Shown here: positions 16,110-49,800 of the stretch, piece by piece
Numbering within the stretch: the stretch's first letter is position 1
Layout of the letters: every line of letters begins with the position of its first letter
Assembly: GCF_964355755.1 (NCBI RefSeq)
Contig: NC_092677.1
Coordinates: 28,242,101 to 28,306,100 of the forward strand
Length of the DNA: 64,000 bases
Direction of reading: 5' to 3'
Origin: Antedon mediterranea
Lineage: Eukaryota; Echinodermata; Crinoidea; Comatulida; Antedonidae
The notes under the pieces: generated by a model
The model's database searches: none
What the model was told of the DNA's origin: nothing
What the model saw: the letters and a program-made list of their open reading frames with translations, nothing else
Made by a program: the position numbers and the translations under genes

Positions 16110-19100
16110 GCGTTCTTACTTTGTCTTTAGTGACCCCGTTGGAAGTTAATAACTACAAGGTAAATCAAGGTAAACAGTAGTAAACGCTGCTGCTGTAGTA
16201 CATGCGTTGGAATGGATTCAGACAATTCTTCAGGTGGGATCGCTTATCTTTAATAACCCATATTATTATTAGTGGGATTTTAATTAAAATTTGATAACAG
16301 GTTTTTTTTTTCTCTTTTGTGGCGTAAACACCACTTTCATGTCACTACCATAAAATCATATTATTTTTAGTATTATCACATTTTTGTTAATTTCTAATGT
16401 CAACAATTTGATCGACTTCATCAGTAACATTTTTAAATCTTTGTAAATTACTTTGTATTCCATAGTACCTCCTTTTTTCATTCATTTTCTTATAAATGAT
16501 AAATCTTACAAAAGCATATTCAAGACTCATATTTTGTTTTCTCTGAACTATTTTTTCAAAAATCATTTTTTAGCTAAAAATATATTTGAATTGCTAACAA
16601 CAATAATCTTTCATTTCAGGTGAAGACGTTTATGAATGTGGAAGGTGTCAAGAAAGGTTTTTGAACTATGATTTATTTAAAAATCACAAGAAAAATAGAG
16701 TATGTAAAAATAAACAAAGAAATAAATCAGATGAAGAGGCAGTTGACAATCTGAATGAACCAACAGGTTTGTGAGCTGTCATGAATCTATTTTTTTTTTC
16801 ATACGCATCCAACAGCGACAACAAATTCGCAAATTACAGGATCTGGATAAACCATTTTATGATTTATCATGCTTATAAACTAAGTCTCATATGAGGCTAA
16901 GCTTAGTGAATGGAGTTGAAAGAGTCGATGAGATACAACCCTGGCACTACCTGTAGGTCAGGGTTCAACCGTGGACCTTGAGGCTAGCATGTTAACCACC
17001 ACTAAATCTACAGCTCCACTCCATAGTTATACACATTATTTCAAGTCATTCTCATAAATATACATCATTTTTCTTTGTAGATCTTGTGAAAGACAGTTCT
17101 TCAAGTCCTCTGAAAGAAAATCTGCTTGTATCTTTGGATTCTATTATTGGGTTAGCAACTAAACTAGCTTTTATTTCAGATGGTGAAAACAATTCATATA
17201 AGTCAACAGCAAGCATGTCATCCCAGTTGACGGATCATGACTACATGTTTCTACAAACTAAAGTTGATGAAGCTGGAAACGAGTCAAGACTTAGATGTAC
17301 ATTATGCTCCATGTATACTGAGAACTTAAAAGAACATCTTGAGAAACAACACATGATTTATAAGGAAAAAGTACAAGAATTTGTGTCCAGTTACCTCGCA
17401 GATAGTAACAAAAACAAACCAGTGATGTGTATTGTATGTGAAACCGAGTACCAGACTTCAACTGATCTTAAAAAACATAAGTGCCCCAAAGTGGTATGTA
17501 CCGATTGTAGTAGTGCATTTAATAATGATTCACTATATGAAAACCACACTTGCTTAAGAGTTAAAACTTGCGGAAACTGCGAATATTCATTTAAAAATGT
17601 TGCTTTATTTATGAAACATATTTGTGAAAATCCCGAGAAACCTGGACAAAGTAAGGTTGAATTTGTAAATGGTGGTGTTCAAATTGTAAATCAACAATGT
17701 GAAGAAAATGTGACTGAAGAAGATTTGGTTAAGCGTAAAAGACGCTGTTCTTTCTGCGCATTCAGTACTATCCATTCGACACAGCTTCTTAACCACTTCA
17801 AAGAAAAGCACATGAGTGACCAGGATGAGCAGAATACAACCAGTGAAAATGTGGATATTAATACGGATGATGAAACTACAACTCAACTAAGTGAGAAATG
17901 CAAACGTTGCAGACGTACAGTACCAAACCTTGACAAACACAGACTTGTTTGTCAAGATCAAAAAGGCAAGACATGCATTCTGTGCAAACACTATTCACGT
18001 GACACACATGATTATAAAATACATGTTGATACTCATAAGGTATGGCTTGATTTTGATGACGTAAAACATGCCAAAGAACACATAGATGACAATAATGATA
18101 CTACAATTGCAGAAAGCGATAAACAGAGCACAACATCCATAAATATTGATTGCTCAACGCTAACCTCTGAAGATGTAGATAAAATTGTAATGAAAATTAC
18201 CAAAGAAAATTTAAATGATACACAAGAAAATGCAGAATATCCAGTAAAGGAAGAATCTAGCCGCAACCAAAACACTCGCAAGTGCAAATCTTGCGGCAAG
18301 TTTATCGTGATTGACGTCTTACAACATCATATGCTAGTGTCGCACAACAAGGTCAGGTTCTTCAGGTGTTTTCTTGATACTTGCGTGAAAGTTTTCTCAA
18401 AGCTTGACAAATTTACTGACCATGTCAAACTACACTCTGAAAGTAAAGATATGCTGTGGTGTGGATGCAAGACTTGCGTGCAGATGCAACCGTCAGGCAT
18501 AGCGAAAAGAAAAGAATTAAGGAAAGAAAAAATGAGACAATATTATCACAAAATGATGTATAAATGCAAAATCTGCTGGAGTAAGTTTCCCACTGAAGCA
18601 GGCTTGTTGAAACATAACAGCAATGAATCGCATCACTACCCTTGCCATGTATGCGGCAAAGTACAAGTTAGCATCCGGCAGCTGAAAATACATATGCCTA
18701 CTCACGACACTGCACGACTTCATCTGTGTGACATATGTGGTTTGGGGTACAAAACAAATAGAGATCTGAAGAAACACAGAAACAATCATTCAGACGAACG
18801 TCCATTTGTGTGCGATTCGTGCGGAAAAGCTTTCCCAACAAAAGTTAAACTCAACCGCCATTTTGTTTGTGTGCATAATCCTATAAAGGCATTTCCTTGT
18901 ACTTACGATGGATGCGAGAAAAGATTTTCACGTAAAGATAAGCTAAAGGATCACCTTAACACCCATTTGGATGTTGAGCCGTTTAAGTGTCCGTATTGTA
19001 ATAAAGGGTTTTACCGATCAGACAATCTGAGGGATCATGAGGTGCTGCATACCCGCAACTATAGATTCAAATGTACTATGTGTGATAAAGGTTATATGAG

Positions 19101-19377
19101 ACCTAAGCTATTGCAAGTTCACAAACAACGAGAACACAGCAGTGACCAGCAGCACCAGCAGCAGGAGGTTGATAAACAAAATAAACAAGACACTAATTTT
19201 CCTCCACTGTATGCTCTATATTCACAACATCCAATACAGATTCTACCTGAAGCCATCCACAACCTAACAGCAGTCCAACAGCTTGTCAATGAACAGCAGC
19301 AGTCTGCCATTGATCAGTACCACCAGCAAACATTAAGTACTGCAGTTCCAAATATGGCAGTGTTTGACACTCTATGA
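16110..19377 (+). CDS. C2H2 zinc-finger protein, ZNF341-like tandem paralogue
   Basis: Three coding exons, 16212-16233, 16620-16766 and 17081-19377, join in frame to 821 residues; the exon holding the ATG begins after an acceptor at 16108-16109. The reading frame in the last exon enters from the splice site, and its first GTG is not the start. The N-terminus holds a C2HC finger (C14, C17, H30, C36). Scattered fingers follow, then a block of consecutive fingers at about residues 549-743 and a Gln-rich tail (about 744-821). The order matches ZNF341 next door: N-terminal DVYECGRC finger, a finger ending HVDTHKVW, a C-x4-C finger with FSKLDKF, then the C-terminal block. It is probably a nuclear DNA-binding protein; its target is unknown. 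AATAAA signals lie at 19531 and 19630. Confidence 0.88.
16900..17020 (-). repeat. possible tRNA-derived SINE fragment
   Basis: On the minus strand the block carries TTAGTGGTGGTTAACATGCT, like a tRNA A-box region, followed by ACGGTTGAACCC, like a B box. It lies in intron 2 of the first zinc-finger gene. No anticodon stem can be drawn, so it is not called a tRNA gene. Confidence 0.25.
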
Positions 19378-19861
19378 CCTGACACAAGGATCCAAACTAT
19401 TGCAATTTGATTGGTCAAAACGTAATGATTGGTACAGTATAAGAATGGAGGGAATCCTCAGTTTAAGTGGCATGCTATATCATATAGGACTGTACCTGTC
19501 AAAATCAAGTTTTCATTTTAGCTGCTTTCTAATAAAAAAATGTTTCCATAGTATGCCTTGTAACACTTCTTATGATTAGTATGCAACATCTGTAGGTTTT
19601 GAGATTGTCTGTCTGTCTGTCTGTCCACTAATAAAATTCTATATTTGCATGTTATAAAAAGAGTAATATAATTTGATATTAAAAAAAAAGTGATTTGTAA
19701 TGTTTTGAATCTTATTTCGTTTGTTATAAAAATATATAACGTTTAAAAAGCTTTAACTACCAAATTTTATATAAAAACAATCCATAAAGATTTTTGTTAA
19801 AATAATAACGAAATTATTAAGTTACTGCAAACATGATTTTGAAATGTAAAAAAAAATGCAT

Positions 19862-20221
19862 TAACTATAGATAACCCCACCTATTGCATCTGGATAGTTA
19901 CTATAGATAACCCCACCTATTGCATCTGGATAGTTACTATAGATAACCCCACCTATCGCATCTGGATAGTTACTATAGATAACCCCACCTATTGCATCTG
20001 GATAGTTACTATAGATAACCCCACCTATCGCATCTGGATAGTTACTATAGATAACCCCACCTATCGCATCTGGATAGTTACTATAGATAAAATCACCTAT
20101 TGCATCTGGATAGTTAATAGATAACCCCACCTATCGCATCTGGATAGTTACTATAGATAACCCCACCTATTGCATCTGGATAGTTACTATAGATAACCCC
20201 ACCTATCGCATCTGGATAGTT
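19862..20221. repeat. 36-bp minisatellite, 10 copies
   Basis: The 36-bp unit (core ATAACCCCACCTATTGCATC) repeats 10 times about 480 bp past the stop of the first zinc-finger gene. Copies alternate between TATTGCATC and TATCGCATC; one has AAAATCACC for CCCCACC and one lacks CTA. Because 36 is a multiple of three, one minus-strand frame stays open as a 12-residue repeat (YPDAIGGVIYSN). There is no promoter, splice or composition support for translation. Confidence 0.93.
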
Positions 20222-22186
20222 GATTTTTTAACATTATCATAATTATTGTAAGTGATTATTGTAATTGTTTAATGAAAATTGTACAAATATTAAAATTGGT
20301 AATAAGGCTTTTGTGTGTGGTTAGGGTTTACTCCATGGTGGTTCACGCTGTTTGTATTTTATAATTTGTTTTTGTTGAATTAACGTCACGGCCCGCATGT
20401 AGTCTGGGTTCCAGACGGAGTTTTGTCTTAATATTAGTTAAAAGATAAATATTTTGGCACATATGGCGTTTCATACGTATACTACTTGATTTTGGATACT
20501 CCGTCTGGGGAAACACGCACAAGTCACGTGGTTTGACACCAAGAATTCTTGGTGCATACGATTATCCGGTTGACTAGTTTCAGCTGCATGCGATTGGCTA
20601 CTCTCTCGTACACCGTTTAAATATTCATATTTCAGAATTTCAAAGACTCAACAACTAAGATGATGCGCATGCGCTATGTTACGTTTAGAAAACGTGTACT
20701 TGGGTACATTTATGAAAGTTCTGAAAGCTATAAATTATTTTATATGCCTAGTAGTCTGGTAAACATTGGATGGGATCTTTGAAACATGAAAACTCGTCTT
20801 GATATATGATAGGCTAGCTTCTCCGCAAATCAAACATTGAATGGATCATTTATTACGCGGAGATAATTTTGATTTAATTCCCACCCAGACCCTGTCCTGT
20901 TCTGTGTGGTGGTGTAGCCCTGTTGTGTGCCAGTGGTATGTAGGCCTACTTCATTGGCGTTTTATTTGGCAGGTCATACGTGCGAGTTGAGTAGGACCTA
21001 CGAAAGAGGCCTAGGCCAAGGACTAAACAATTAATAAACAAAACAACTTGGCATTACTATTTTATATTTCAACAGTCTCGATCGTACATTAAGCACTGGT
21101 AGGCCTACGTACTCGATCTCTTTCATTTTGAAACAAAATGATCATTGGTTGATTCGAAATCCATATTACATACCACCCGCCCCATATAGCCAAATACGGT
21201 ATGATAACCTACGTCATTCTTATCGTATGTTTGCAGTCTGCAAATCGATTTCTATACGTGTTTCACAAGTCTGTATTTTCAGACAAAAATCGCGGTCGAA
21301 ATAAAAACAAATAAATAAAAAAAAAAGATAATACAGACTTGGGGCAAGTCTAGGCCCGCATGGTGCACATGAATTGCATGCCTCACTCACTTGCTTACAT
21401 TGTTTGTAATACTCACCAATGCTGGTTCTGGCGATATTTCGCGACTTTATTTCTGCTGTCGGTTTGGGTTTCAAAATAAAATAAAAATTAATTTTCCTTT
21501 AAAAAAATATATCCCAAACCCAATCTAGAGCTGAGAGCACTCAAACCTGAGCATTAACCATTGCGCCACAAAGTAGTACATGACTAAACAGCTGATAATA
21601 GTTTATTTATACATGTATTACGTAATTCATCATTACGTCATAACTATCATATTAATCTTGTTAAAACCAAAATGACCAGTTAGCTCAGTCATGGGTTCGA
21701 TTTGGTCGGTGGAATGCGAGCAACTGTGTTTGGGGTTCACAGAATTATACGTCCCTTTTCCACCACACATCTGCATGAGGCAACAACATCAATGCATCTG
21801 GTGATGTGCTGGAAACGACCCCAAAAGGCTGTAGCAGGGCCTTCTTGGCAGGGAAAATTTTCATTTAAAAATTTTGTTAAGCAATATTGCTAATCAAACT
21901 GATTTTTAAGTCGAGAAACATAGTTTTGTATTGTATTTTTTGCTACACAATTTTCAAAATGAGTAGCAATAAGGTTGTTTTGTATAGCTTTTTGCTACGC
22001 TACACTGGCGAAAATGTTCCCTGCTTGGTGCTGGTGGCAGGGAGAGCACTTTTTTTTCAACCTGTATTCGGTCTGGTAAATTTTATGTTTGCCGCCCTCA
22101 ATTTTCTCAACATTGAATTTTGTGGGGTAAACTGTCATGTGATCATATTTGTCCAATCAGACAACAACTGTAAAAAAACTCTAAAA
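20222..22186 (+). promoter_or_regulatory. intergenic and presumed ZNF341 5' region
   Basis: This gap between the two zinc-finger genes is less AT-rich than its surroundings, with several CpG-containing words (ACGTCACGG, CACGTGG, GCATGCGC) and TAGGCCTA words at 20,940-21,010. The transcription start is not identifiable. On the minus strand around 21,515-21,570 TGGCGCAATGG matches a tRNA-type A box, probably a SINE fragment. The frame of the ZNF341 start codon stays open upstream from about 21,887, with an in-frame ATG near 21,959. Confidence 0.4.
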
Positions 22187-25100
22187 ATGGCGACACAAAC
22201 GCTTTTTGAAGCGCTATCTGGTTTGTATTTATTTTTTATGCTTATTACTAGTTATCTTTTTAGGGCGTCTGTTGCTCATATTTATGGGTAATACTTCTAT
22301 GAATTATGTTTTGTTCCATAAAGAAATATTTAGTCTTTATTTCTTCTTTATTGTGGACGAGCAATATAAAAAGATGACTCGTCTGTCAAACAACGGCAAG
22401 CATAGATAGGGCGCTACCTAGCTAGGCCTAGCCTATTGGCGGCCTGGCTAGATTTAGAAAGTGTCCTCCTAGCTAGTAAGGGAGATCGCCGATCCCCCGC
22501 CCGTTTTGGTAGTCGAACATGATGGTACTGTTAATGAAAATGCTAGGCCTAGCAATAATATTTATAAAATTTAATTGGCCTAGTTCTATAGGCCTACTAC
22601 TAGGCCTAGGATAGGCCTAGTTTAGTTAACACAGAAAAATACATAATAATCTACTCTAGCTAGTAGTAGGCTACTTTATACTAGGGCCTAGTACTAGAAG
22701 ACTGGTACTAGGCTAGGCCTATAGGCCTAATTTAATACTACTACACTACAACAAACCACAATGCAAATACAAAAAGGGAGATCCCAAGTAAAAAGTAAAC
22801 AAATAAATTGCAATGCAAAGGCCCAAAGCAAGTCAAAATCAATCGCTATACAGTATAGCCTATAGATAGGGTCTGCATATAGATGGTATATTGTCATTGA
22901 ATATCAGTAGTAAACTGAAACATTTCCCCCATAGGTATTGATAACCAAACAGCATTAGCAGTTCAGTCATTACTGGAGACATCTACATCTGTACACGAAC
23001 CACCACAAGCAGGTCTGTATTATACAGTGTATTACCATTTGCTTTCTTTGTAAAACTTTTTACTCTTTGATCTTGCAAAAACATATTAAGTAATATCTGC
23101 TCTGTATTTATATTGGTAATAATTACAGTGTATTACCACTCTACTCGCTTTCTTTGCTTTTAAATGCAAAAACATGTATAAAGTATTAACAATATCTTTA
23201 TTTGAATTACAGATGATGAAGATGTGTTTCAATGTGGTAAATGCAAGAAGCAGTTCACAAATCTGCCAATGTTCATGAATCATAAAAACAGTAATTGCTT
23301 AGCTAACATATCACGATCAGTAAACAGTGCGTTTACTAGCTCTATCAATCAGAATAATCTGAATCGTTCCATCCAGTTCAATACAGCGGTTTCACAATCT
23401 CCTCTAGCTCAACTAACAGCTCAAAATGTCATTCTTAGTGAAGAGGTACTTATATCACCATTTAGCTCAGTGGATCATCTTCCAAACAATGTCCTTCAAA
23501 CTAATAATTTAACTAGCGTTCCATTTGTGACGCAGCAAACTCAACCTCAGCGTAATAATGTTAATCAGCAGTGTTTTACTTCTGTAGCTGCAATCAACAC
23601 AGCTTCATTTGCAACTTTGTCTCAAAATCATGTGACTTTTAGCACCCCTGGCATTGCTAGACCAACACCAACCACAGCCCCTCTTCTCAACATTGCTGAC
23701 AATACTCAAAATCTGGTTCAGGAAGAACTACTTGTTAATCAGAGTAAGGTTCCAAAGACCCTAAGTTATATTAATTTTGTGAAAGATTATAATGAACTTG
23801 CTCGTGATAAATCGGCTGGAAGTAATATAAAAACTGCAAAACGAGAAGGCAAGTATAAGTGTACATATTGTGATAAAACATTCCCAAAGAAGTTTGATTT
23901 AAACCAGCACATTCGCAGTCACACTGGAGAAAAACCTTTTCAATGTATTGTTTGTGGCAGAGCCTTTGCACAAAAATCTAACGTGAAAAAGCACATGCAG
24001 ACACACAAGGTTTGGCCCTCAGGACGTGGTAACACACTCCCGAAAAAGGTGAGTTTATTTTGGGGGTGGTTTTTTTTTTTTTAATTTGAGCATTAAAACC
24101 AGTTAGTAGATTTTCAAACATTTGATAGGTGTTCTTTCAATAAATCAAAACCCAGCTAAAAGAAATTTTTTTTTAGCCAATAAGCAAAATAACATCAAAA
24201 GATTGTGAAGAGGAGAATGCAGGTCAAGAAAATGAAATGGTGCAACAGCAACAACAGGAAACTGGTAAGAGTTTTTCAAGGACTTTTATTGGCTATACCA
24301 GAAATAAAATAGAATATGTATACATACAGTCTATGGATTCTCTCAGTAGATTTTGTAACTTGTAGCAGGAGAGAAGAATGCATTGTAAAACCAATATTGT
24401 AATGTACAATACTCTCAGTAGATTTTGTAACTTGTAGCAGGAGAGAAGAATGCATTGTAAAACCAATATTGTAATGTACAATACTCTCAGTAGATTTTGT
24501 GGCTTATGCTGTAAATATATTTTGTATCTTGTAGTTGGAGAGCAAGTCAAAGAATGTATGGTAACAACACAACAGACTGCTGAGTCCATTATTGTTGATA
24601 ACTCATACCTTTGTAGTTTTTGTGATAAATCTTTCAAGTCTTACTTCAAACTTAAAACGCATATGAATCAACATAAGAATGAACAAGTAAGTGTTAAAAC
24701 ATTTTAAGTTCGTAATTTGCTTTGGTAGAATTATGCTTGATTGTTGCAAACATAGAAAATAACGCATAATGACTACTTAAGTATTTATTTAAATAGGAAA
24801 GTTTATTTTCACTTTTCTGGAATTGTTCCTTTTATCTCTTATAATAACATTTACATTTCAATTGCATTTTTGCTGGCTGTCGTCTGTCCAATCCAGTCAT
24901 ACACCAAATGGCCATTAACAAACACTTTATTTAATTGTTTAATCACATTTTTCTTGGTTATCTGTAGGTATTCAAGTGTATCCTAAAGTCATGTGGTAAA
25001 ACGTTTAAGAACCTTGAATCATTTCTTGAACACACCAAGACGCATGAGATGGAAATGTCGTACCGATGTCACATGTGCTGTAAGAACTTTGCTTCTCTTT

Positions 25101-28100
25101 ATGAGTTAGGAGTCCATCAGTACTCCCACAGTTTGTATCCAAATCAAGGTCCAAGAGTAGTGCAGAAGTGAGTTCTCTTTTTGTTATTTTAGCACAAACA
25201 TTTGGGAGCTTTAAATTTGCGACGACCTACCCGGGTCAGGTCATTGATGTGCTATCGGTCAGGACCTAGAAATCATCAAAACTGTGTGGAGCATGTCCCA
25301 ATATCGCTGTATGAGCACAGTGGATTAACATGGTATACTTTGGTTGTCGTAAATCGATAGCTCCCTATTATGTGCTGTTGTGCTTAAACTATTGTTGTTT
25401 TTACTATTATTTTTCAAGATTGGTTCAAAGAATGTTGTTTTTTTTTCAGCACCGACTTCAACATCAAGTTCTGTTATTAGAGTGCAGTTACATTTAGTTT
25501 ATGTCTTTTAAGATATAATAGTCCAGTCAAAAATCACCCTCACCATGGTATAAGAACGTACCCTAATAAAATTTCATCCGTAGGTTCTATGTATATAGGT
25601 AATAACATTTCTTGATGTTGCGTCTTGCAAAACTTGGGATTTTACGAGAAAATTTGACTTTTATACCCAATTTATAACTACCTCATGTCGTATTATTGTG
25701 TACAGCGAATGCGACGAAGCGTGACTGAAATTACGAGACACCGTTAGCGCCCGTTGAAAAATGCATTAACAAAGCTAAAAACCTACAAAACTAATAGTTT
25801 ATACAATGATTTAAATATAGTTTACAATAAATTGTATAATAAAATACATAACATATAGAGAAAACTCAAATATAAACTAAAATATTTACAGATATGTGTT
25901 TAAAAATGTACAAATCAAAATGGCCTTCCATAAAATAAAGTGCGCCCTCACGAGTCATACTTTTATCGGACTTGTATATGAATAAATAAATATACGAAAC
26001 CCGATGCGGTTTATTAGTTATTGCCTTTTTTTTACGCAAGAGGCATAATATTTTATTTTCACAAATTTATTTATATTTTTTATCATGGAAAAAAGGATTG
26101 TATATATTTAAAAACATTACAACCTCCAGTATACCATCATGATGGATAAAGTGTATATTTGTATATCTGCTGGAGCGTAATGATTTACTAGTTCTGCTGG
26201 TTTTATTTTGGACATTTTTGTTTCCACAGCATTCCTTGCGTGGATATCACAATGCATTGCATATTTTGAACTGCCATTCGCGATTCTAATCTTAATTAGA
26301 GTAAGAACCAATCATTTAAGGATAATCAATTACGCGTAGGCCTATACGAAAGATACTACCTCAAGTAGGCCTTTCACTTTCCTACAATTATTTAGAGCGT
26401 ATCAAAGGGGCTGGTCGGGATTCATCTAAATCAACATTTTTCATTTTCCCTTTTCACCCGCCGCCACCAACCACTTCCCCCACTGCCAATGAGGAGGAGT
26501 TGCCGGTTTGATCCTCTCTGAATCCGTCTAGCCTCCACATCGTACCGATGTGTGAAGTTTGAGCCAATAAACGTCATTTATGACGATTCTTTAAGTTCGA
26601 AGTCGTCTTCCAGAATTCAAAGTATTCTAAAGTTAACGTATTTTCCCGTTTTTCCACCATTCACATTTCACTAAATAAAAGATAGTGAGATGTGGGAGTG
26701 TGATGTAAGATTCGCGAGAAACGACAACATACAGTATTACCCAATTCTCCTTTTTTTTAAGACGTGACGTAATAAATACATTCTAATATAAAGTTTTTTT
26801 GGTGGAGAGTAGTCCTACAATGATAATTATTATTGGACATTTTATACACAAAAGCATGTCATAAACGATTGGTTCACCTCCACGGCCTGACCTGAAAGTT
26901 CTAACTTGGGACGAGAAAGTAAAGTCCACAAAAAACTTTTTATATGCATTTATTTCAAATATTGTTTTCCGCCGAGTCCGACGCATTTTAATGAATTTGA
27001 ATAATATTTATAAAGCTTGGAAGAACACTGTAGTTTAATTTGTTGGCTTATTCAATTGCTTATAAATGACGTTTTAAAACGCAACGAAGATGTAGGCTAT
27101 TGTCCCAAAAAGTGAAGATGTAGATTAGTTAATTAAACGTAAAAGTTATCCGTCAGACGTCTCGAACATAAAGAATATTCGGTGGCAGGATTACATTTTC
27201 TAAAAGACGAAATTGTCTCACACATCATACGATATGGATGAATCAATTCAAAGAAACTTAAACAAAACTAACAATCACAAGGATTAACTTCGTTGCGGAT
27301 AACCAATAAGAAAATATTTCAGACGACTTTATTCATTTAAATCGTATACGCGAAATGGACTGTCATATAAAAATGATTCTTACTCAAATTAACATTGACT
27401 ATAATCGCGAATATACAATGCATTGTGATATCCACGCAAGTAATGCTGTGAAAAAAAAAGAATGTCCAGAATAAAACTAGGTAGATAACTAGGAGATTAT
27501 TACGCTTTAGCAGATATACAATACGGCGCAATTCACTTAATCCATCATGATGGTAGACTGGAGGTTGTAATGTGTTTAAATATATACAATCCTTTTTTCC
27601 ATGATAAAAAATAGAAATATATTTGTGAAAATATAATATTCTGCCTCTTGCAGAGGCAATAACTAACAAATCGCATCGGGTTTCATATATTAATGCCTTG
27701 TATAACCATTCCATACAAGTCCGATAAAAGTATGACTCATGAGGGCGCACTTTATTTTATGGAAGGCCATTTTGATTTGTACATTTTTAAACACATATCT
27801 GTAAATATTTTAGTTTATATTTGAGTTTTATCTATACAGTGGGACAGCCAGTCGACAAATCGTGTCAAATTTCGACTCGGAGAGGGCGCCCTACTTTTCT
27901 AATTTAGTTCAAAATGGCTAAATTTTAGGGTGTTGGAAAAACACAATATTTGTAAATTTAGTTGATTATCGGAAAAATGTTGTTAGTGAAATAAATTCAT
28001 AAATGGTTTTAATATATTGTCATGTAAAATTAAATGTATTTGAACAAAACGATAATCTGTAATTTAACGGCAAAATCAACCAATGTCTTTTTTCCGAAAT

Positions 28101-31100
28101 TGTACCCTAGAAAATCATTAAAATAAAATATTTAGAAAAATTGAACAGTCCTGAATTTAAAATCCCTGTTAGAAAAATTAATAATCTACAGAATACGATA
28201 TTAAGATACAAAATTCGGTGGTTGGGATGCAGCTCCGACTATTCAAACTAAAGGTACCACTATTTGTTCCATCGAAAACTAGCGAAACCGCCATTTTGTA
28301 AACACATCGTCATCGTGTTTATGAATTTATTTATAGCGAACGATATACGCGATGTTTATAATTGTCCGCGTATAAGAATTCATATAAATAAATACATTCC
28401 AATACAACGTATATTATTACTTGTTTATTTATCACAGTAAACATTTTAGTTGAGGAATATTTATCATAACTATTATAATAGCTTTTATACGAGTCCGAGG
28501 CCTAGCCCTATTAGCGAGCGATTGTTCCAGGGGCGGAAAGTCACTTAGTGACGTTGTGATCGGGCGCGTCGGGCCTAGCTAATATTAATAATATGACCTG
28601 AAATAAGCGGCTAACAAGAACTGTTATATACTTGCTTACAATTGTTTTGTTATTGATGAACAAACAAGCAATTAGATTGAATAACAAATTATTTATTCAT
28701 TTTTTTGGGGTAAAAACATGTACAAACTAGGCCTAGGGGCCTAGTACTGTATAATAAAAATTAATAGTAATATTAAACTAATACAGTATTAATAAAATAT
28801 AAAATAGGCCTAACATACAATAAATATTCAATTTTTAAGGTCTACCACATGACAATAACATCATTTACAGAGTATAGTGTAGTAGGTTTGCATTCAACAT
28901 AAATATTTGTATTGTAATTCATCTAAATCCTCTGCAACATACATATATATTTGTAATTCAACATTTTGTTTTAAATAATTAAATTATAGTTTGGGTATGA
29001 CAATGTCGATAGGTACCGGTGTCATCTTTTTATCCACTTCACTCTCAGTTTGAAGTCACAAAGACAAAGAACTCTGCATCATCAACGATTCCTGAAAGTG
29101 TCAGAAAAAATAATAAATATTATTTAAAAAAAATGTTAATGTCTGGTTGTATATATAATTATAATATTATATGATGACATAAAAGTAAGGCAAATGGAAG
29201 CTGTATTTTATTAATTAAATTACAGTATTTACTATTATTATTTATATAATCTAGGCCTATACTTAGTAGCCTAGCTAGGCATCTATTGAGCCTAATAAAT
29301 CAAATAATAAATGAAAAATAAAATAATATTAATACTGATTGAAAAAAAGTATTTTTTGGGGGGGATCAGATCACCAGGCTAGGCCGGCCAGGACCAATGA
29401 TACTCGTAATCAGTACAACTTAACGACTATCGGATCAGCATCAACACAGTACCAACACACGTCTCGCTATCGCCTATACTGACACACGTGTCTCGCGTTG
29501 CCGAAACCACGCTCACAGCTAGAAAATGTACCTACCTTTCGAGGCCTGAGAATACACCAACACATTTTGAACAGGATAGAAATATATCATACTCGATTAA
29601 ACTAATATTATTCTTGATAAAACAATTGATTACAATTTTTTTAATTTGTTGGGATGCACCTCCGACTATTCAGAAAATGGACAACAAAACAGTAGTCAAA
29701 TCGTACCACATTTATAAATTTCACGAGTCCCGACTTCAGTCGCCGAATGTATTGTATTAGCTTCGGTTTCTTTGAAGAAAACCGATTGGTTATTCAATTA
29801 TACTTATTAGGAAATGCTTTTACCATAATAGGTAATGTTGGGCGGTTCTTAAATATTCTTGAGAGCTTAAAATAAAACAGCACTTATTTGCTAGGCGACG
29901 AAAAATCGTGGTTTCAGTTTTCAACGATAGGTGGCGCTTCAAAATCGTCAATGCGGAAGTAAGTCGATTTTACACGATTTAACGGTCAAAACGCGAAGTG
30001 GCTTTCCCACTGCATATGTTATGTATTTTATTATACAATTTATTGTAAACTATATTTAAATTATTGTATAAACTATTAGTTTTGTAGGTTTTTAGCTTTG
30101 TTAATGCATTTTTCAACGGGCGCTAACGGCGTCTCGTAATTTCAGTCACGCTTCGTCGCATTCGCTGTACACAATAATACGACATGAGGCGGTTATAAAT
30201 TGGGTATCAAAGTCTAAATTTCTCGTAAAATCTCAAGTTTTGCAAGACGCAACATCAAGAAATGTTATTACCTATATACGTAGAACCTACGGATGAAATT
30301 TTATTAGGGTACGTTCTTATACCATGGTGAGGGTGATTTTTGACTGGACTATAAGAGAATGTGACAAAATGTGTTCATTGATTTGATTATTTTTATTATT
30401 TTTTCCAGAACTTTTCGTTGTAATAAATGTATGAGTAAGTATTCAACACAAGCAGCTCTAGATCACCACAACGCTACAACAAACCACCGCTTTGACTGTA
30501 CTCATTGTGGAAAGGTATTCCCAAGTGAGCGTAACTTGCGGCGCCATCTACCGACTCACACCAGTGTAGGTACGTTTCGATGCGAGATGTGCGATAAATA
30601 CTTCAAGACAGAACATTACCTCAAGACTCATCAATTAATTCATTCTGGATATAAACCATTTCGATGTGAAATATGCCAGGCAGCTTTCAATCGTAAAGAT
30701 AAGCTGAAACGTCACATGTTGATACACAATCCTGTAAAGCGCTTCAAATGCCCATTTCAATCTGTAACCGGATGCAAGTCGGAATTCAACAGACCGGACA
30801 AGTTGAAAGCTCACGTAATATCGCACAGCGGCGTTAAACCATTCCGTTGCCAGATATGCGACAAAAAGTTTTGTCGCAAAACAAATTTATCGGACCACAT
30901 GCGAGTACACACAGATGATTACCCAAATAGGTGTGAGAAATGCAACAAGGGATACAATAGGAATCACACATGTTCAAGGTTTAAGAGGAACAAATTCACT
31001 TCCTCCAAAACGGAGAGTAAAAACATGATTGAAAGACTAGATGAGATCTTGGAAGTAGACTACTTGAGTAACGCAGATAGTGCTTTAAATACGGAAACCG

Positions 31101-31504
31101 ATCAAGTAGGAACTAGGCGATCTAAAAGAATTAAAATTAAAAAGAAAGGACGACAACAAGAATTAGCCATGAAAGCTAAAGCTTCCCAGAATGTTCCTAA
31201 AGAGAACAAACAAGGGAAAGGTGTGAGTCTCACGGCAAGTAACATGATTGCAGGTATTGCACGAGACTTAGAAATTATAAAAGCACATATGAATGAGAAT
31301 CAGAAAGATACTGATGATGCGTTACCAACTGACCGTTGCCAGGATGATATTGAACAAAGTATATTACTCACTCAATTTACAGAGTCCATTTGTCCGCCAT
31401 CAAAGAATTGTAACTTAGAACATTCTGCTACCTCTGCTTTTGATGCTGTGATTGGATCCACTACGGACAATCAAGATCATTCTATACAAGCTTCATCCTC
31501 ATGA
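22187..31504 (+). CDS. ZNF341: ZNF341 orthologue, C2H2 zinc-finger transcription factor
   Basis: Seven exons, 22187-22220, 22935-23012, 23213-24048, 24177-24264, 24535-24686, 24968-25167 and 30409-31504, join in frame to 827 residues, near the vertebrate length. The start is set by the family N-terminus ([19 protein letters not shown]), with a good AAAATGG context. A C2HC finger (C45, C48, H61, C66) follows, then a low-complexity region, a finger pair at about 252-302 with [19 protein letters not shown] and THKVWP, a finger near 370-392, two near 397-450, and six or seven at about 463-655. A basic [13 protein letters not shown] patch (about 697-712) suggests a nuclear signal. Human ZNF341 activates STAT3 and STAT1 transcription; a similar role here is inference. 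AATAAA lies at 31894. Confidence 0.95.
22400..22760. repeat. dense TAGGCCTA-word cluster in ZNF341 intron 1
   Basis: Within 360 bp the words GGCCTA, TAGGCC and CTAGGC recur many times, often overlapping into palindromes (TAGGCCTA, CCTAGGCC). Comparable clusters occur near 15,500-15,800, 20,940-21,010, 32,830-32,960, 42,000-42,150 and 42,650-42,760, close to the 5' ends of the other genes. No fixed repeat unit is visible, so this is word enrichment rather than a tandem array. Confidence 0.7.
24338..24500 (+). repeat. 72-bp tandem duplication in ZNF341 intron 4
   Basis: Two near-identical copies (period 72 bp, from AGCAGG positions 24364 and 24436) plus a partial third run up to the acceptor of exon 5. 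Each carries TTTTGTAACTTGTAGCAGGAG, which mimics the genuine acceptor TTTTGTATCTTGTAG at 24520-24534. The copies therefore offer AG sites similar to the one used. Confidence 0.85.
25519..30351. mobile_element. 4.8-kb terminal-inverted-repeat DNA transposon in ZNF341 intron 6
   Basis: The element opens TAGTCCAGTCAAAAATCACC and closes with the reverse complement. The inverted arms are long (about 335 bp visible, 25519-25856 against 30015-30351) and nearly identical over the outer 140 bp. TAA flanks both ends (25516-25518, 30352-30354), a 3-bp target duplication as seen for PIF/Harbinger elements. No transposase is recognisable, so it is non-autonomous or degraded. Its left arm is interrupted by a second element (25854-27836); after that insertion the arm resumes with CAGTGGGACAGCC, matching GCAGTGGGAAAGCC in the right arm. 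It fills about 92% of the intron. Confidence 0.93.
25854..27836. mobile_element. 2-kb foldback element nested in the larger transposon
   Basis: The ends are TATAGAGAAAACTC and GAGTTTTATCTATA, consistent with a TA target duplication. The inverted arms extend roughly 480 bp (about 25,860-26,345 and 27,340-27,832), sharing for example TGGCCTTCCATAAAATAAAG, with more mismatch towards the centre. The spacer of about 1 kb has no recognisable transposase. It interrupts the left inverted repeat of the 25519-30351 element, so it arrived later. Confidence 0.88.
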
Positions 31505-33270: not shown

Positions 33271-36200
33271 ATTTGATAAATTTTGCTTAATGAATTTCTT
33301 TAAGTGTACATGGAAGGTGTATAATGACAGATGCTAAAGCTAAGGTGAGCTTTTCATTAACGTTTTTTAATAGTCTGTGTTAATATTACCTTCATTCATT
33401 GTTATTGAATTATTCAACATATACTAACACAAAAATATATAAATTACATATGATGGAACTTGTAATAGTCTTCCTTTATTCTAAAACTTTGAAAATAATT
33501 AATTGTAAAAACTACCAGTGCTCTGCAATAATATACTGTTCTCTATGATATACTATACTATCATGTTTTTTTAGATAACAGACACACTTTGTCAAGGTTT
33601 TCTTGTTATTTATGATCAATTGTAAATGTTGTGTGGCAATGTATGTCTAAGTAAGTTGTGCAACTTTCAACAATATATTTATGTATCCGATTTCTCTGTA
33701 ATTAACTGAACAATATCTTCTATCGTATAATTTTAACTCCTAATTGGATGTGCTATTATAATTTTACAATAATTACGAGTTTATGTTGGTGAGATAATCA
33801 TTCTACTGTACAATCTTTACAAAAAAGTGCATGGTTGTCGAGATATGTAAAGTAGACTACCAAACACAATATAATAGATTTTCCAATGGATGATACGTTT
33901 ATATCCTTTTGTGATTGTTGTGGTTTGTGTGAATAGCTTTAAAAACAAACAATTTACACGATCTTTACAAACTTGGAGGTTACTTCTCTAATTTGCATAT
34001 TTGTTTAATAGAAAAAAAGAATTCCGTATGTTTTGTTGAAGTATTTAGTCGTATCATGGTTATATAGTAGAATTTTGAGTTTACTGTTTGGTAACCCCTT
34101 CAACTACACTTGTTATGTCTCAAGCCTTGAGACATAACAAGTGTAGTTGATCAATATGTTGATCATTGGTTCAGGTTAATCGTTTTTATTCCATCCAATA
34201 TTTTGTCATAAGTGAAACTGTTTGTAACATTAAAATGGCATATTAAAAAACAAAATTTCTATGTAACTAATATTTAGACCAGACTTTAATAATATTGTTA
34301 CTAAGTACTACTCAAACTACTACAGTATGGATCTGAGATTCCCACTTTCCATTTTTTTCTTTGAACTATGCTCATTTATAATTAGGTTAAGAATGTGTAT
34401 GCTGAATGGAAATAAAGAAGGATTGTTTTGAAATGATAATTGTGGCTGCCGCCCTCTCTTTGTCATGAATAACTACTCAGTACACCTCAATAGAGAGCAA
34501 AGTCTATTTAGCAATAATTGTATGACTTGATTTGCTGTTACCATGGTAATTAAGACTGCTGAATCTCATTATAATATTAAGTAGGACAATACACTGCTAA
34601 ACAGGTGATGTTTAGTTATCAGTTCTAATATTAAAACTCGTCTTGATCATACAGGTAGTTGTTTGTCCTCTTTATGGGAAAATAATAAAAGAATATTTCG
34701 GAATTTAATATATTTCTTGTTTTGTAAAATTACAATTGAACAATTCCTTACAAATTTGTGAATCAGTACTGTAATTAGACTTGAGCCTTTTTATATGCAA
34801 ATTAGGTTAGTATGTATTAGCCAATCAATGACTTGCTATGTGCTGGAATGATGTGAGATGAAATTAATAATTGAGTATTGCATGGTAATTGTAGGTATCC
34901 ATTGCCTTGTACATAGACAGTACTAACATAGACCATGTTCAATAATTATGATGCTCTCAGATTCTTCAGATGAAGAATTAGTTGAATGGTTTTTCTCTAA
35001 AATATGTGTAAGTACAGTATATAGTAATTTTGACAATAATCTAGCTTTGGTTGTTAAGTAGCATTCATACAGTATCATAGCATCATATATATTTTAGTAT
35101 ACGTGTCTATTAAAAAGGCGTCTGAGAATTTATAATTAGCATGTAAAATTTTAAAATCTGTGTCTTGTAGTTAGATGAAGATCAGTTGACAACATCCAAG
35201 CGTGCTGTAACTAAGAAACAACTTCCTAAGATTCCACCTGAACAAGCTTACTCAGCATCGTCTACCAGAATGAAGGAACGACAGAACTCCCTCACTGGTG
35301 CCAATGGCTCTTATGGACCATACTTCCTTGAATACTCTTTATTAGCTGAATAGTATGTCAATTCAATTTATTCTGGAAAATAAACTCACAAATTATGATT
35401 GCATTAGCCGAGTTGTTTGGGCATATTACTATCAAAGTATCATACAGGCACTCCCGATCCCAGTCCGCTTTGCTGTAAATTAAGTAACTTGCTGAAAAAT
35501 ACTAGAAAGGCAGTGTGGAAAGGAACTGCCACGTAATGCTGAGACCGGTACAAGGAGCTCCTAACGGCTCATTCCCAAGGAACTGCCACGTAATGCTGAG
35601 ACCGGTACAAGGAGCTCCTAACGGCTCATTCCCAAGGAACTGCCACGTAATGCTGAGACCGGTACAAGGAGCTCCTAACGGCTCATTCCCAAGGAACTGC
35701 CACGTAATGCTGAGACCGGTACAAGGAGCTCCTAACGGCTCATTCCCAAGGAACTGCCACGTAATGCTGAGACCGGTACAAGGAGCTCCTAACGGCTCAT
35801 TCCCAAGGAACTGCCACGTAATGCTGAGACCGGTACAAGGAGCTCCTAACGGCTCATTCCCAAGGAACTGCCACGTAATGCTGAGACCGGTACAAGGAGC
35901 TCCTAACGGCTCATTCCCAAGGAACTGCCACGTAATGCTGAGACCGGTACAAGGAGCTCCTAACGGCTCATTCCCATGTTCAGAAAGAATACACACATAG
36001 AATTTTACCTTTGTGTTGGTAACATGCTTAGAATTAGATCCTGCAAATTGTTCAGAAGCAATAATATTTGATATTTACTTTTTTCAGTAATCAACTCCAG
36101 AAGAATAAACTTCCAGGTGTTTATGTCATACCCTCAGCTGGATCACCTCTTCGTAAGTTTATCGCATGTTTCTAAGATGTACTGTATTGTCCCCTAAAAA

Positions 36201-39866: not shown

Positions 39867-41479
39867 TTATTGCACTTGTGTACCACCACCATCAAAGTCC
39901 ATTACATATTTCAACATATCATTTGTTAAGGTATACCTAGTTCCTTTCCAATTGAAATGTGTTGGTGGGGCATATTCACCTTTCTCACCAAATTCAAAAT
40001 AAGGACTAAACTCTATTGCAAGACTGGACTTCACTAATGCCACATGTCCATATTTCTCTTTAGTGGGATAATAAACTCTTCCGCTGTGTGGTAACATACA
40101 TATTTTGTCAGGTTGAAAATCTACTGTCAGTTTATCATGGGCATGGTTATATGAAAGTAAATCACCATCATCTGTTTCAACTATATTCGTGTATACGATA
40201 GGACGATCATCACATCTGATGTAATTGAGTTCAGGACCACAGACGGACACGTAAGGAAATTCATCTGTATAGACACCACTTTTATTTACCTTCATTCGTT
40301 TGAAGAAGAATGCCAAGAATTTTTTATCTGAAAGATAAAAATAATTAAGATAATTTTGACAATTTCTGCAATGTTCTATTTAATAAATGAAATGCAAGAT
40401 TGTGATTCATTAATTTGATGTTTGGTTAAAAAAATAATTTATTAAAAAATTCTCTTTTCAACAATTATACCTTTAAAACATGTAATGAAGTTCTTCACTT
40501 TTGTGTCATCTAAGAAAAGCTGAAAAAAATATCAATGAAAATTACAATAAATCTTAAACTATGACTATAGGTCTAGGCCAAAAAGACCCTTGCTTTATAA
40601 TATTAAGGCCTAGTACAACTTTAATAAATTTAAAATATTATCACACACATTGTCTGTTATGTTATATTGTCATGTCATACCACCACAAACATCTCAAGTT
40701 CTACTTTAAAACACTGACATGGTCTCAGTCTCACAGGTGTCTGATCATTTCGGCCGCCAGTCATTTCGGCCGCCGGTTATGGAATTGCCAAATTCATGAA
40801 ACGCCAAAAAGGACAAAATATGTATTGTTAATTTCGGCCGCCAGAATTGTAATTATTCTTGAATATGTATGACACGCCTTGTGTGTTAAAATGTTAATAT
40901 TTTACTAAATAGTGTATTATTAAGCCGAATCGGCGGTCTTCAATTCCAGAAACAGCAAGCGATATTTATAGCGTGCACATTGCCATCACTACAGTGAATA
41001 TTAATGATATTTTTTTATAAGAAGGAGTTGATGCTGAAGTTTTTAGCCCATTGCACAACTGATCTCTAGTTTAAATGTCCATAATTCTCTGTGGCGTTCC
41101 ATAGACTTGATAAAGTTATTTTTTTTCACTGTAATTCTGTACAGTTATTTCTGGCTATTTCAATTTGGCGCGCCATACCTGGCGGCCGAAATGATCATGC
41201 CATATTTTGTCCTTTTTGGAGTTTCATGAATTTGGTTGTTCCATAACCGGCGGCCGAAATGATTGGCGGCCGAAATGCACTGTGACCGTCTCACACACCT
41301 ATTCCTACCTGTCCCTGATGATCGATGTAATAAAAGTACTCTCTAACTCTACTTTTACCAGGTCCTTCATTAATTGGTGATTGACCTTGAACATAAGTTA
41401 TGTATCTTGAAGTAAAACGGAAGCAGGTTCCAACACTTCTTACAAATTTATTTTTAACACAACATAGCATAAATAACAT
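39867..41479 (-). CDS. UPF0598 family protein (C8orf82-like)
   Basis: Three minus-strand exons, 41479-41309, 40519-40471 and 40327-39867, join in frame to 226 residues, close to human C8orf82 (216). The N-terminus (MLFMLCCVKNKFVRSVGTCF) is basic with no acidic residue in the first 30, like a mitochondrial presequence; that location is inference. The family signature follows: YVQGQSP, REYFYYIDHQGQ (46-57), LFLDDTKVKNFITCFK, FFFKRMKVNKSGVY, FPYVSVCGPELNYIRCDDRP, SSLAIEFSPYFEFG. The function of this conserved family is not known to me, and no catalytic motif is evident. It diverges from KATNB1 (2.4 kb between start codons) and converges on AKTIP. Confidence 0.93.
40732..41284. mobile_element. 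550-bp foldback element in intron 1 of the UPF0598 gene
   Basis: Inverted arms of about 85 bp carry GATCATTTCGGCCGCC, GGTTATGGAA and TTCATGAAA..CCAAAAAGGACAAAATATG at each end; the extreme ends begin CACAG. The word TTTCGGCCGCC or its complement occurs six times and stands out in AT-rich DNA. The spacer has no protein signature. No clear target duplication is seen. It is a non-autonomous MITE-like element. Confidence 0.8.
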
Positions 41480-43871: not shown

Positions 43872-46800
43872 ATGACAACTAAAAAGGCATGGAAGTTGCG
43901 TAAGTTGATTTATATATTTTTATTTAAAAATTACTAATTTTAAACAAACAACAATTCATTTTTTTAAATTTTACATGACAGAATTGTTTTGTAAATATTA
44001 ATATACACATAATTTTTATGATCGATAACATTAAAATTAATTTATCCAGAGGAATTTGTGGCACATGGGGCCAATGTCAACTGTCTTGCTCTTGGCCCTA
44101 AGAGTGGTCGAGTGATGGTGACCGGTGGAGAAGACAAGAAGGTCAACATGTGGGCTGTTGGGAAACCTAATTGTATAATGGTGAGTTTACTGTTAGTAAC
44201 TATTGGAAATGTTAATTTGCTTTCCAAAATTGATTTCTGTAGGATTAGCATTGCTATTTAGAGATGTAAATTAAATTCAATCAATATCAAGGTGTAAATG
44301 AGATGTTTCAGGCATTCATTTTATCTTCTGTACAAATACAAAAGCGATATTAAATTAATGTACAGTATATATACTTTATAATATGCTTAGACCCATCAAC
44401 ATTTCGTTTAGTGTTTTTGCAGTTACCGGTATCTGTTTAATCTGTTTAATCTGTTTTAATAATTGATCCAAATTGCCATTTAGGCAATATGTTCTTCATA
44501 AACATGGTAAATCGTCAAACTACTGCACTACATTTCTCAGCTTCTGTGTAACCTTTGGCCATTCAATGAACTTAGTTATTGTGGTTTAACTTATCTGTTA
44601 GTGGTAGTACAATTAAGTTTAAATGGATTTATAACATTAACTGGATTAACTTTCATGTCAGGGTTTATCAGGTCACACTACTCCTGTAGAATGTGTCAGG
44701 TTTTCAAGTAGTGAAGAATTAGTTGTAGCGGGATCTCAATCAGGAGGACTTAAGATATGGGATTTGGAAGCTGCAAAAAGTAAGTATAATCCCATCTTGT
44801 CTATTATCTAATTTAAATGGCTTTATCATTTTGATAAACTGTAGTGTGTCCAATTTATCAAGTTTGATATCATCATATTATTTTTGAAATATAGAAATTA
44901 TTAAATATAGAATGTTTAATATTTATTAAATACTATAAGTTTATGCAAATCATGGCAACTGTGTTAAGACTCAATTACTCTATTATCATAAACCATCCCC
45001 CTAAAGCAATACTGAATTCATTCTGATACATTAAGTTGAATTCTTTTTGTAATGAACCATATCATAGCTGACTGCCAAGGGTAAAATGCTGCCATGGGGT
45101 TTAGCAAGCAGCATGTATCTTAATGTAAAATTGCCATTACTTACATGTGTTATGACTCACAACATGTCTTTTCTATTCTGACTCACAGTTGTATAAAGGA
45201 ATTTTTTTATAGGATTTTTTGCTGCTTGTTCATGTTTTGTGTACATATTTTGATATTGATAGTGTACATTAAGAAAATTAAGGCAGGGCATCACGTATGC
45301 AAAACCCAGGAGAGCAACAAATCGCTCTCCTCAAATCACCGAGGAGAGCAATTCGCTCTCCTTGCAAAAATTTTAAATCGCTCTCCTCAAATATTTATGT
45401 TGAAGTTGAAGGATGGTCGCCCTTATTAAAAATGGCTGGCCCTTATTAATTTTTTGTACACATTTTTTTGCCCGACAGGGGATACCCCCCCCCCCCCCCC
45501 CCCCCCCCCCCGCCGGGCACAACAAATGTATACTGTCTGTACCTCTCCCCTAAAAATAAAATCCCCCACACCCACCTTTACACACAATATTTTCCGTGGG
45601 GATCGTATTATTCTACAGTACAAAAAACTCAAGCCAATTTTTTTTTTATGGTCTGCCTGGGTAGATTGGGTTTCAGGAGCCTGGAGAATCCTGTCCTGGC
45701 CAACTATATGCCTTTAGCCTAGCTTTTCTAGCCTAGCTTGTTGGCCTAGAAATCAGACAGAAAACCTGAAAAGTATTTACCTGCAATTCATAAATTATAC
45801 AATTCTAACATGCAACAGCCATTAAAATATTGATAATAAGTTACAAAGTGTCATTTTAAAATAATTAAGAAAGATATTTGATCGTGTTTACATGTGTCAC
45901 ACATGGGCGCACGCACAGTAGGGGAGGGCTGAGAGAGCTTCTAGTAGAAGATGCTGACGTCACACATCAGCACGTGTTTTGAGGAGGATTTGAGTGACCA
46001 AAATTGGTTAGAACTTTCGAAGAAATAATCCATCTTCAAAATGACATAATTAAAGCAACCAGCAGCTAAGCTTTTTTAAATAATAAACATTATATTTAGG
46101 CCTCCTATATTAATGTTTCCTTTTAAAATTAAATATATTTTATTAACTCGTTCCATAAAAACATAAAGGGAAAAATTATTGGTTGGGACATGATCTTCCT
46201 GTAAAGGAGGTGTTTCTATGACACCGTACTGGTTGCACTATGAGGCGATGAAGTAAACTCGCCCTTGAATGCGCGCAGGTAGGGGAATCCCCTTTGTTGG
46301 TACCTCGCACTGTACTGTGAGATGGAGCGCGATGAATTGCTCTCCTTTTCGAAGGTTGTTGATTGCGATCGCGCTCGCGATCCTTAAAAACGAGGGACTG
46401 CCATTAGGCTTGTAGCTTTATAACTTAGCTTATATACTATTAGCCTAGGCCTAGATTGGTTTTAACTTTTAAAAATCCACGTGTTTTTAGGCCTCTTGAC
46501 AGAAAAATCAACACTGTCAAAAGCTAGGCTCTATTTTGAAAATTAAGGAGCGCGATAAATTGCTCTCCTCGAAGCCTGTTGAGGAGCGCGGAGGAGCGCG
46601 GTCGAGCAGGCGCTCCTTATAAATGATGCCCTGTTAAGGATTTTATTTATTTAAAAAAAAGAAAATTTAGATCAAATAATATATCTGTGAAAATTGAATA
46701 TACACTATATTTTACATAACATTTTGACATTACTTTAAATACTTTGGTGTGGTTTTTTTCTAATTAAGAAAATAATAAATTAAAAATGACATAATTGATT

Positions 46801-49800
46801 AGATAACCTTTAAATATTACATGTTTAAATTCACTTGTTTAACATGTACACTGTAAGTCTGTACTTTAGTGTCATCACTTAACACATGGTGCAAATTCAT
46901 TGCTGATTTAATATAAACAATAGACACATGCCACTTGTGCAAAATGCCTTCTATTCTCAAGGTAAAATTCTCTTACCATGCTTATATGTCAATTGGTAAA
47001 TTTGTTTTCCAATTTTTTGTATTTAATCATTTTAGGCATATTTTAACAAATTACATAATAAATCTCTATGGTATACTTTGAACTTTCTATGAACCTGATG
47101 GAATACAGTAAGCTGTAGAATCACATGCCTATACAATGAGTGGTGTACTGGGTTGTTTGTAGATTAAAATCACAGAAAAACATTTTATTTTGCTGAAAAA
47201 TTCTTACTATAGCAATGTCAGACCTTACAAACGATTACAATACACTGAAAATGGTTTTCCATACCTTTTTTTTTCAAAACTACCTCAATTCAAATGTTTA
47301 ACAATACCAATACTGTGTAGTTAGAAAATAGCAACAGAGTTTCCATGGTTATTTGTTAAATTTGTAACCTTCACCCCAATAATGACAAACCATAGGCTAA
47401 TTACAAGTAACTGGATAACATAAAATATACAATAACTGTTGTGATATAACAATAGTTTTGAAGGCTGAACGCTGGTTCGAGTGACTGATTTCAATGAAGA
47501 TGCTGTACAAAAATGATATTTTCTGTATATTAATAAGCATTAATATATATTAAGAGATATTTTTTTGTTAGGTATTTAAGTTTCTTTTAATATCAAAATG
47601 AAAAAACAAATTATAATTTGTTTCTTTTTTTCTGATATAAATGCGTTTCTTTTTTGTTGATAGTTGTAAGGACATTGACAGGACACAAAAGCAACATAAA
47701 GAGTTTAGATTTCCATCCATATGGAGACTTTGTTGCCTCTGGATCTATGGACACAAATTTAAAGGCAAGTATTTACTAAGCATTTGCCGCCATTTGTAAG
47801 AATTCACAACTAGCATGTCTAACTGCACCTTTTATTTGTTACCATTTGTAAGAATTCACAACTAGCATGTCTAACTGCACCTTTTATTTGTTCCCATTTG
47901 TAAGAATTCACAACTAGCATGTCTAACTGCACCTTTTATTTGTTACCATTTGTAAGAATTCACAACTAGCATGTCTAACTGCACCTTTTATTTGTTACCA
48001 TTTGTAAGAATTCACAACTAGCATGTCTAACTGCACCTTTTATTTGTTCCCATTTGTAAGAATTCACAACTAGCATGTCTAACTGCACCTTTTATTTGTT
48101 ACCATTTGTAAGAATTCACAACTAGCATGTCTAACTGCACCTTTTATTTGTTACCATTTGTAAGAATTCACAACTAGCATGTCTAACTGCACCTTTTATT
48201 TGTTACCATTTGTAAGAATTCACAACTAGCATGTCTAACTGCACCTTTTATTTGTTCCCATTTGTAAGAATTCACAACTAGCATGTCTAACTGCACCTTT
48301 TATTTGTTACCATTTGTAAGAATTCACAACTAGCATGTCTAACTGCACCTTTTATTTGTTCCCATTTGTAAGAATTCACAACTAGCATGTCTAACTGCAC
48401 CTTTTATTTGTTACCATTTGTAAGAATTCACAACTAGCATGTCTAACTGCACCTTTTATTTGTTACCATTTGTAAGAATTCACAACTAGCATGTCTAACT
48501 GCACCTTTTATTTGTTACCATTTGTAAGAATTCACAACTAGCATGTCTAACTGCACCTTTTATTTGTTCCCATTTGTAAGAATTCACAACTAGCATGTCT
48601 AACTGCACCTTTTATTTGTTACCATTTGTAAGAATTCACAACTAGCATGTCTAACTGCACCTTTTATTTGTTACCATTTGTAAGAATTCACAACTAGCAT
48701 GTCTAACTGCACCTTTTATTTGTTCCCATTTGTAAGAATTCACAACTAGCATGTCTAACTGCACCTTTTATTTGTTACCATTTGTAAGAATTCACAACTA
48801 GCATGTCTAACTGCACCTTTTATTTGTTACCATTTGTAAGAATTCACAACTAGCATGTCTAACTGCACCTTTTATTTGTTACCATTTGTAAGAATTCACA
48901 ACTAGCATGTCTAAATGCACTTTTTATTTGTTACCATTTGTAAGAATTCACAACTAGCATGTCTAACTGCACCTTTTATTTGTTACCATTTGTAAGAATT
49001 CACAACTAGCATGTCTAACTGCACCTTTTTATTTGTTATAATAAAGGTAATAAACTGTAAATTGAGTATGTCTGTAATTTGTGAAGTAAATGTTTTACAT
49101 AATTTAGCATGTTTTATTTCATTATTAATATTTCCTTTTTTACATAATTTAGCATGTGTTATTTTATTATTAATATTTCCTTTCCTTTCACCACTTGCTA
49201 TGTTGCTGGAATAAGAATTAATTAAAGTCAAAGATGATTCATATTAAATAACATATTAAAGTAGTGTAAAAGCAATAATTACAATATTGTATATCAATCT
49301 TCATAACATGACTCATTCTCAACACCTTATATATTACTGTACATACACTTATCCCAACATGTCTGATATGGGTCACAACTTACTTGTTCAAAATATTGAT
49401 TGAATGTCCAACATTATAATTGCCTATATAAAAGGAAAATTACTAATGTCCAAGAATAATCCCATCTCATAATTTAGGCTGGATTTGGGCACACTTAAGC
49501 CCATTGTTAATGCAATCTCAATATATTTCCACCTCTAAATTTGTGCCAAAAGTTGTACCCAGGCCATTGGGACTATACAATACTATATAAGGTATGATAA
49601 TGTAACAATATTTACTTTGCCAAATAGCGTACCCCTATACAATACTATAATAATAATGTATGTTATTAATTGTAACCATTAATATTCACTTTGTCCTACA
49701 AGCAGTAATCTAAAATGTGCATTCTGATATTAATTGAAATTCATAACAATTATAAGAATTAGTAAATTATGTTAATTTGCTGTGTCACAAATCTAAATGG

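Follow-up and report, generated by a model that had tools for sequence, protein, structure and literature searches.

The window analysed here, a stretch of 64,000 nucleotides (C8:28242101-28306100) from the 354 Mb, 18-contig genome of the animal Antedon mediterranea, carries two zinc-finger genes that lie head to tail on the + strand, separated by a gap of 2.8 kb. The pair is a real and fairly ordinary gene duplication, in which a known transcription factor stands beside a divergent tandem paralogue of itself. We consider it highly probable that the right gene is ZNF341 and that the left gene is its tandem duplicate, fast-evolved and intact, whose product would be a partly overlapping DNA-binding partner or competitor of ZNF341. 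At the level of sequence, the divergent-paralogue reading of the left gene is well supported by genome searches, an in-register score, finger order, a tree and a shared phase-1 intron.

Scripted splicing of the two genes yields proteins of 821 aa from three exons (left) and 827 aa from seven exons (right), with all introns GT-AG and all frames joining, which bears out the near-equal lengths and head-to-tail arrangement of the preliminary description. The gene ends given there were likewise borne out, with the exception of the left coding start, which lies at 16212 rather than at 16110. Position 16110 is the first base directly after a TTTTTTTCAG acceptor, and 16110-16211 is therefore probably 5' UTR. 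The features of the two genes are as follows.

16212-16233, + strand: left gene, coding exon 1 (MDSDNSS), with ATG, GTGGGA donor and a phase 1 end just before the C2HC finger exon
16620-16766, + strand: left gene, exon 2, GT-AG, with the N-terminal C2HC finger (EDVYECGRCQERF...); best non-self genome match is the right gene's first finger
17081-19377, + strand: left gene, exon 3, 2.3 kb and intronless, with the CX2CX12HXC motifs, fingers 2-13, the Gln-rich tail and the stop; 764 open codons
17428-17625, + strand: left gene, three consecutive CX2CX12HX1C motifs (aa 173-238), from a regular-expression scan
18565-19137, + strand: left gene, fingers 7-13 (aa 552-742), a block colinear with ZNF341
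22187-22220, + strand: right gene (ZNF341), exon 1, by splice check
22935-23012, + strand: right gene, exon 2, by splice check
23213-24048, + strand: right gene, exon 3, with C2HC finger 1, fingers 2-3 and THKVW, by splice check
24177-24264, + strand: right gene, exon 4, by splice check
24535-24686, + strand: right gene, exon 5, with finger 4, by splice check
24968-25167, + strand: right gene, exon 6, with fingers 5-6, by splice check
30409-31504, + strand: right gene, exon 7, with fingers 7-13 (13 degenerate) and the C-terminal region; best non-self match is the left gene

One phase-1 intron is common to both genes and lies six (left) or seven (right) residues ahead of the first finger cysteine. 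None of the introns 3' of it are shared; where ZNF341 has four introns, the left body consists of one uninterrupted 2.3 kb exon. With 5' introns kept and 3' introns absent, the left gene may have gone through cDNA-mediated intron loss.

Several other features surround the pair. Intron 6 of the right gene contains a 4.8 kb insertion (25518-30352) with 339-base inverted arms that are 97% complementary, and further inverted pairs are nested inside it. The arm has at least 40 copies in the genome at 97-99% identity, frequently paired in opposite orientation at a distance of about 2.3 kb, and we read the insertion as a young DNA transposon or a foldback family member. A 36-base unit is repeated ten times in tandem at 19864-20221, between the two genes, and the window holds further minisatellites, among them 24 x 52 bases at 47790-49038 and eight identical 57-base copies at 35520-35976. 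Two neighbouring genes were identified.

39867-40379, - strand: gene for a DUF4505 (UPF0598) protein
44022-55794, + strand: WD40 gene, with WD40 exons at 44022-44261 and 50727-50936; presumably katanin p80, which it resembles

The right protein begins with an MA..LFEALSG.DNQT.LAVQSLL stretch, followed near the N-terminus by a C2HC finger and then by fingers 2-3, THKVW, finger 4, the C-x4-C finger 5, finger 6 and fingers 7-13, the last of which is degenerate, having lost its histidines. This layout and finger order match what we take to be those of human ZNF341, of which the N-terminal FEAL..DNQT.LAVQSLL stretch is presumably also a feature. On the basis of this layout the right gene looks like the ZNF341 of A. 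mediterranea, in a normal-looking copy. ZNF341 was not seen among the solved-structure matches listed, and a literature search found no paper joining ZNF341 with an echinoderm.

The landmarks that had first suggested kinship between the two proteins are all present. Both carry an N-terminal C2HC finger after an acidic start, EDVYECGRC in the left protein and EDVFQCGKC in the right, and a finger ending in HVDTHKVW or HMQTHKVW, respectively. The C-x4-C finger is present in both; its motif, SKLDKF (left) and KNLESF (right), follows the pattern (K/N)L(D/E)xF and not the (S/N)L(D/E)xF given previously. A DKLK helix is found in each terminal block (RKDKLKD and RKDKLKR), with the corrected count being one in the left protein (finger 11) and two in the right (fingers 10 and 11). 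Fingers 7 and 8 follow each other at a short spacing of 26 residues in both.

By blastp the two proteins align from finger 2 to finger 13 with no rearrangement (181 bits, 31% identity over 435 aa), and a second alignment starts at the N-terminal C2HC finger. C2H2 genes are generically alike, and three stricter tests were therefore run. When the left finger exon was searched against the whole genome, its best non-self match was the right gene at 146.9 bits, the next locus reaching 92, and the left N-terminal exon found the right gene's first finger with an E of 2e-4, the next match standing at 0.41. Conversely, the right gene's last exon found the left gene as its best non-self match (147.8 bits, against 128.8 for the next). 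The seven-finger cores were then compared in register with the conserved F/L positions masked, alongside 217 seven-finger windows from 22 other zinc-finger ORFs, a conservative set because these ORFs were picked as top hits. The left-right pair scores 91, the best other windows score 70 against the left core and 74 against the right, and register shifts cut the score sharply. As part of this second test, the pairing of fingers by position was equalled or beaten in 22 of 200,000 random permutations. Thus, the colinear similarity of the aligned proteins holds beyond generic C2H2 residues, as both the masked test and the order permutation attest. The third test, a tree of the seven-finger cores, joins left and right with 89/80 against 37 rows, support that we grade as moderate because the bootstrap had not settled. 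With the genome searches, masked score, permutation and tree in agreement, the tandem paralogy and colinear finger order first proposed for this pair stand. When whole proteins are compared by blastp, the right protein reaches higher scores with canonical multi-finger ORFs (212-214 bits) than with the left protein (181 bits) because its own fingers are canonical; the evidence for a reciprocal relation therefore comes from the searches with single exons and from the in-register tests. No relatives of either gene were found among IMG/VR viral contigs.

The left protein has changed in several respects. Fingers 2, 4 and 6 are degenerate, with finger 2 reading CX2CX8HX4C, finger 4 shortened and finger 6 lacking the histidine pair, and the early claim that canonical fingers were lost in this copy therefore holds for these three, which lack proper ligands or spacing. 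Fingers 3, 5 and 7-13 are intact; in 7-13 every zinc ligand is preserved, and the linkers and helices are of standard length. Between fingers 1 and 3 lie the atypical CX2CX12HX1C motifs. A scan for this form covered both proteins and 22 further zinc-finger ORFs from the genome, with 431 canonical fingers among them, and found three instances in the left protein and none in any other. The tail is Gln-rich as originally described, 17 of the final 78 residues being Q. The N-terminal ZNF341 stretch is missing from the left protein, and a search upstream of the left gene for an exon encoding it gave no significant match (best E 0.24). At a mean pLDDT of 41 the AlphaFold2 model of the left protein is weak, and most finger folds that can be made out in it belong to the C-terminal block, where pLDDT is about 60-74. 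Finger 13 runs against a simple account in which the left copy degenerated, because it is intact in the left protein and degenerate in the right.

Fingers 7-13 of the left protein should bind DNA. Across these fingers 14 of 28 contact residues are identical between left and right: three of four in fingers 11 and 12, two of four in fingers 7, 8 and 10, and one of four in fingers 9 and 13, the finger 13 comparison being made with a right finger that is itself broken. With half of the contacts identical, and three of four in fingers 11 and 12, we prefer a partly shifted specificity to a new one; the specificity of the left protein has probably shifted in part and would overlap that of ZNF341 in part. 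The new DNA specificity raised in the preliminary description is plausible, though it would be a partial change. For GGAACAGCC, which we take to be the ZNF341 motif, no exact match was found in the 9.9 kb searched around the N-terminal exon detected for STAT and upstream of it, and the single match with one mismatch in the same 9.9 kb is at chance level; therefore nothing here ties the left or the right gene to STAT. Searches of the genome using two STAT domain models, in which a missing match does not amount to absence, turned up only a single STAT locus; it lies outside the window, at G000:C2:2982547-2995411.

Other explanations of the left gene differ considerably in how well they account for these data. 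That it is an unrelated C2H2 gene that happens to lie beside ZNF341, its likeness being generic zinc-finger similarity, would fit with the sizeable scores that finger repeats give between any two members and with tree support of only 89/80. Yet two non-overlapping parts of the left gene each find the right gene best genome-wide, the masked in-register score exceeds those of all 217 windows, and the genes agree in finger order, in the phase-1 intron and in odd spacings. We regard this reading as extremely improbable, and it was rejected on the exon genome searches, the masked in-register score and the finger-order permutation. A decaying ZNF341 pseudogene would explain why several fingers lack ligands and why the body is intronless, as in a reverse-transcribed copy. 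It is nonetheless quite unlikely given a frame open for 764 codons in an AT-rich genome, where shuffles reach at most 151, and a C-terminal run of seven fingers in which no zinc ligand is missing; the splice sites are also intact, two introns are kept, and base composition by codon position is coding-like.

The age of the duplication is a closer question. It may have preceded the split of the major animal groups, in which case the left gene would belong to an old family that was lost from vertebrates and sits beside ZNF341 in several lineages. The state of finger 13, which only the left copy has kept intact, is compatible with such an origin. So are the core positions, although the counts that involve human ZNF341 serve as leads only: the right protein agrees with human ZNF341 in 50 of 84 positions and with the left in only 37, and the left agrees with human in 31 of 84. 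Against this, left and right share nine residues that differ from human, and left and human share three that differ from right. Because of this excess we lean towards a duplication that took place within this lineage and was succeeded by rapid change, and hold the ancient origin to be a possible but doubtful alternative. A bolder version of it, in which a second ZNF341-type factor was retained next to ZNF341 across a wider animal clade, was lost in vertebrates, acts on ZNF341 at shared targets as a competitor or modifier and uses its CX2CX12HXC array for a new interaction, strikes us as unlikely.

The preferred reading is therefore a tandem duplication of ZNF341 that would have given rise to the left gene. 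The left copy would then have changed fast, its body introns disappearing, fingers 2, 4 and 6 losing their ligands or spacing and the CX2CX12HXC motifs coming to be present, although the order of these changes is our reconstruction. If expressed, the left product would most likely be intact, located in the nucleus and able to bind DNA via fingers 7-13; it probably shares the ZNF341 target in part through fingers 10-12 and differs through fingers 8-9 and 13, and would then be a partner or competitor of ZNF341 with partial overlap. Human ZNF341 is a C2H2 transcription factor key for STAT3 expression (PMC10354173). If confirmed in related genomes, the pair would be a natural experiment in which a regulator of this type, one that controls STAT3 in humans, splits its role after duplication, with contact residues kept in some fingers and altered in others. 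Otherwise, the left gene would be an ordinary duplicated, fast-evolving C2H2 gene.

Compared with ZNF341, the right gene is alike in the N-terminal stretch, the C2HC finger after an acidic DVF, THKVW and the finger order, and differs in its degenerate finger 13. The left gene shares with ZNF341 the C2HC finger, THKVW, the C-x4-C finger, the order of fingers 7-13 and near-equal spacing; the N-terminal stretch is missing from it, its fingers 2, 4 and 6 are degenerate and its body is intronless, and it carries three CX2CX12HXC motifs and a Gln-rich tail. The poly-C2H2 genes of the same genome (clusters on C1, C5, C6 and C11) have generic C2H2 fingers and linkers in common with the pair, but their in-register similarity is clearly lower and they match the left N-terminal exon no better than E 0.41. 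The PATZ1/MAZ group, likened here by class, consists of C2H2 DNA-binding factors of the same broad kind; these are G-rich-binding zinc-finger proteins whose ChIP signals have been compared with those of ZNF341 (PMC11613955).
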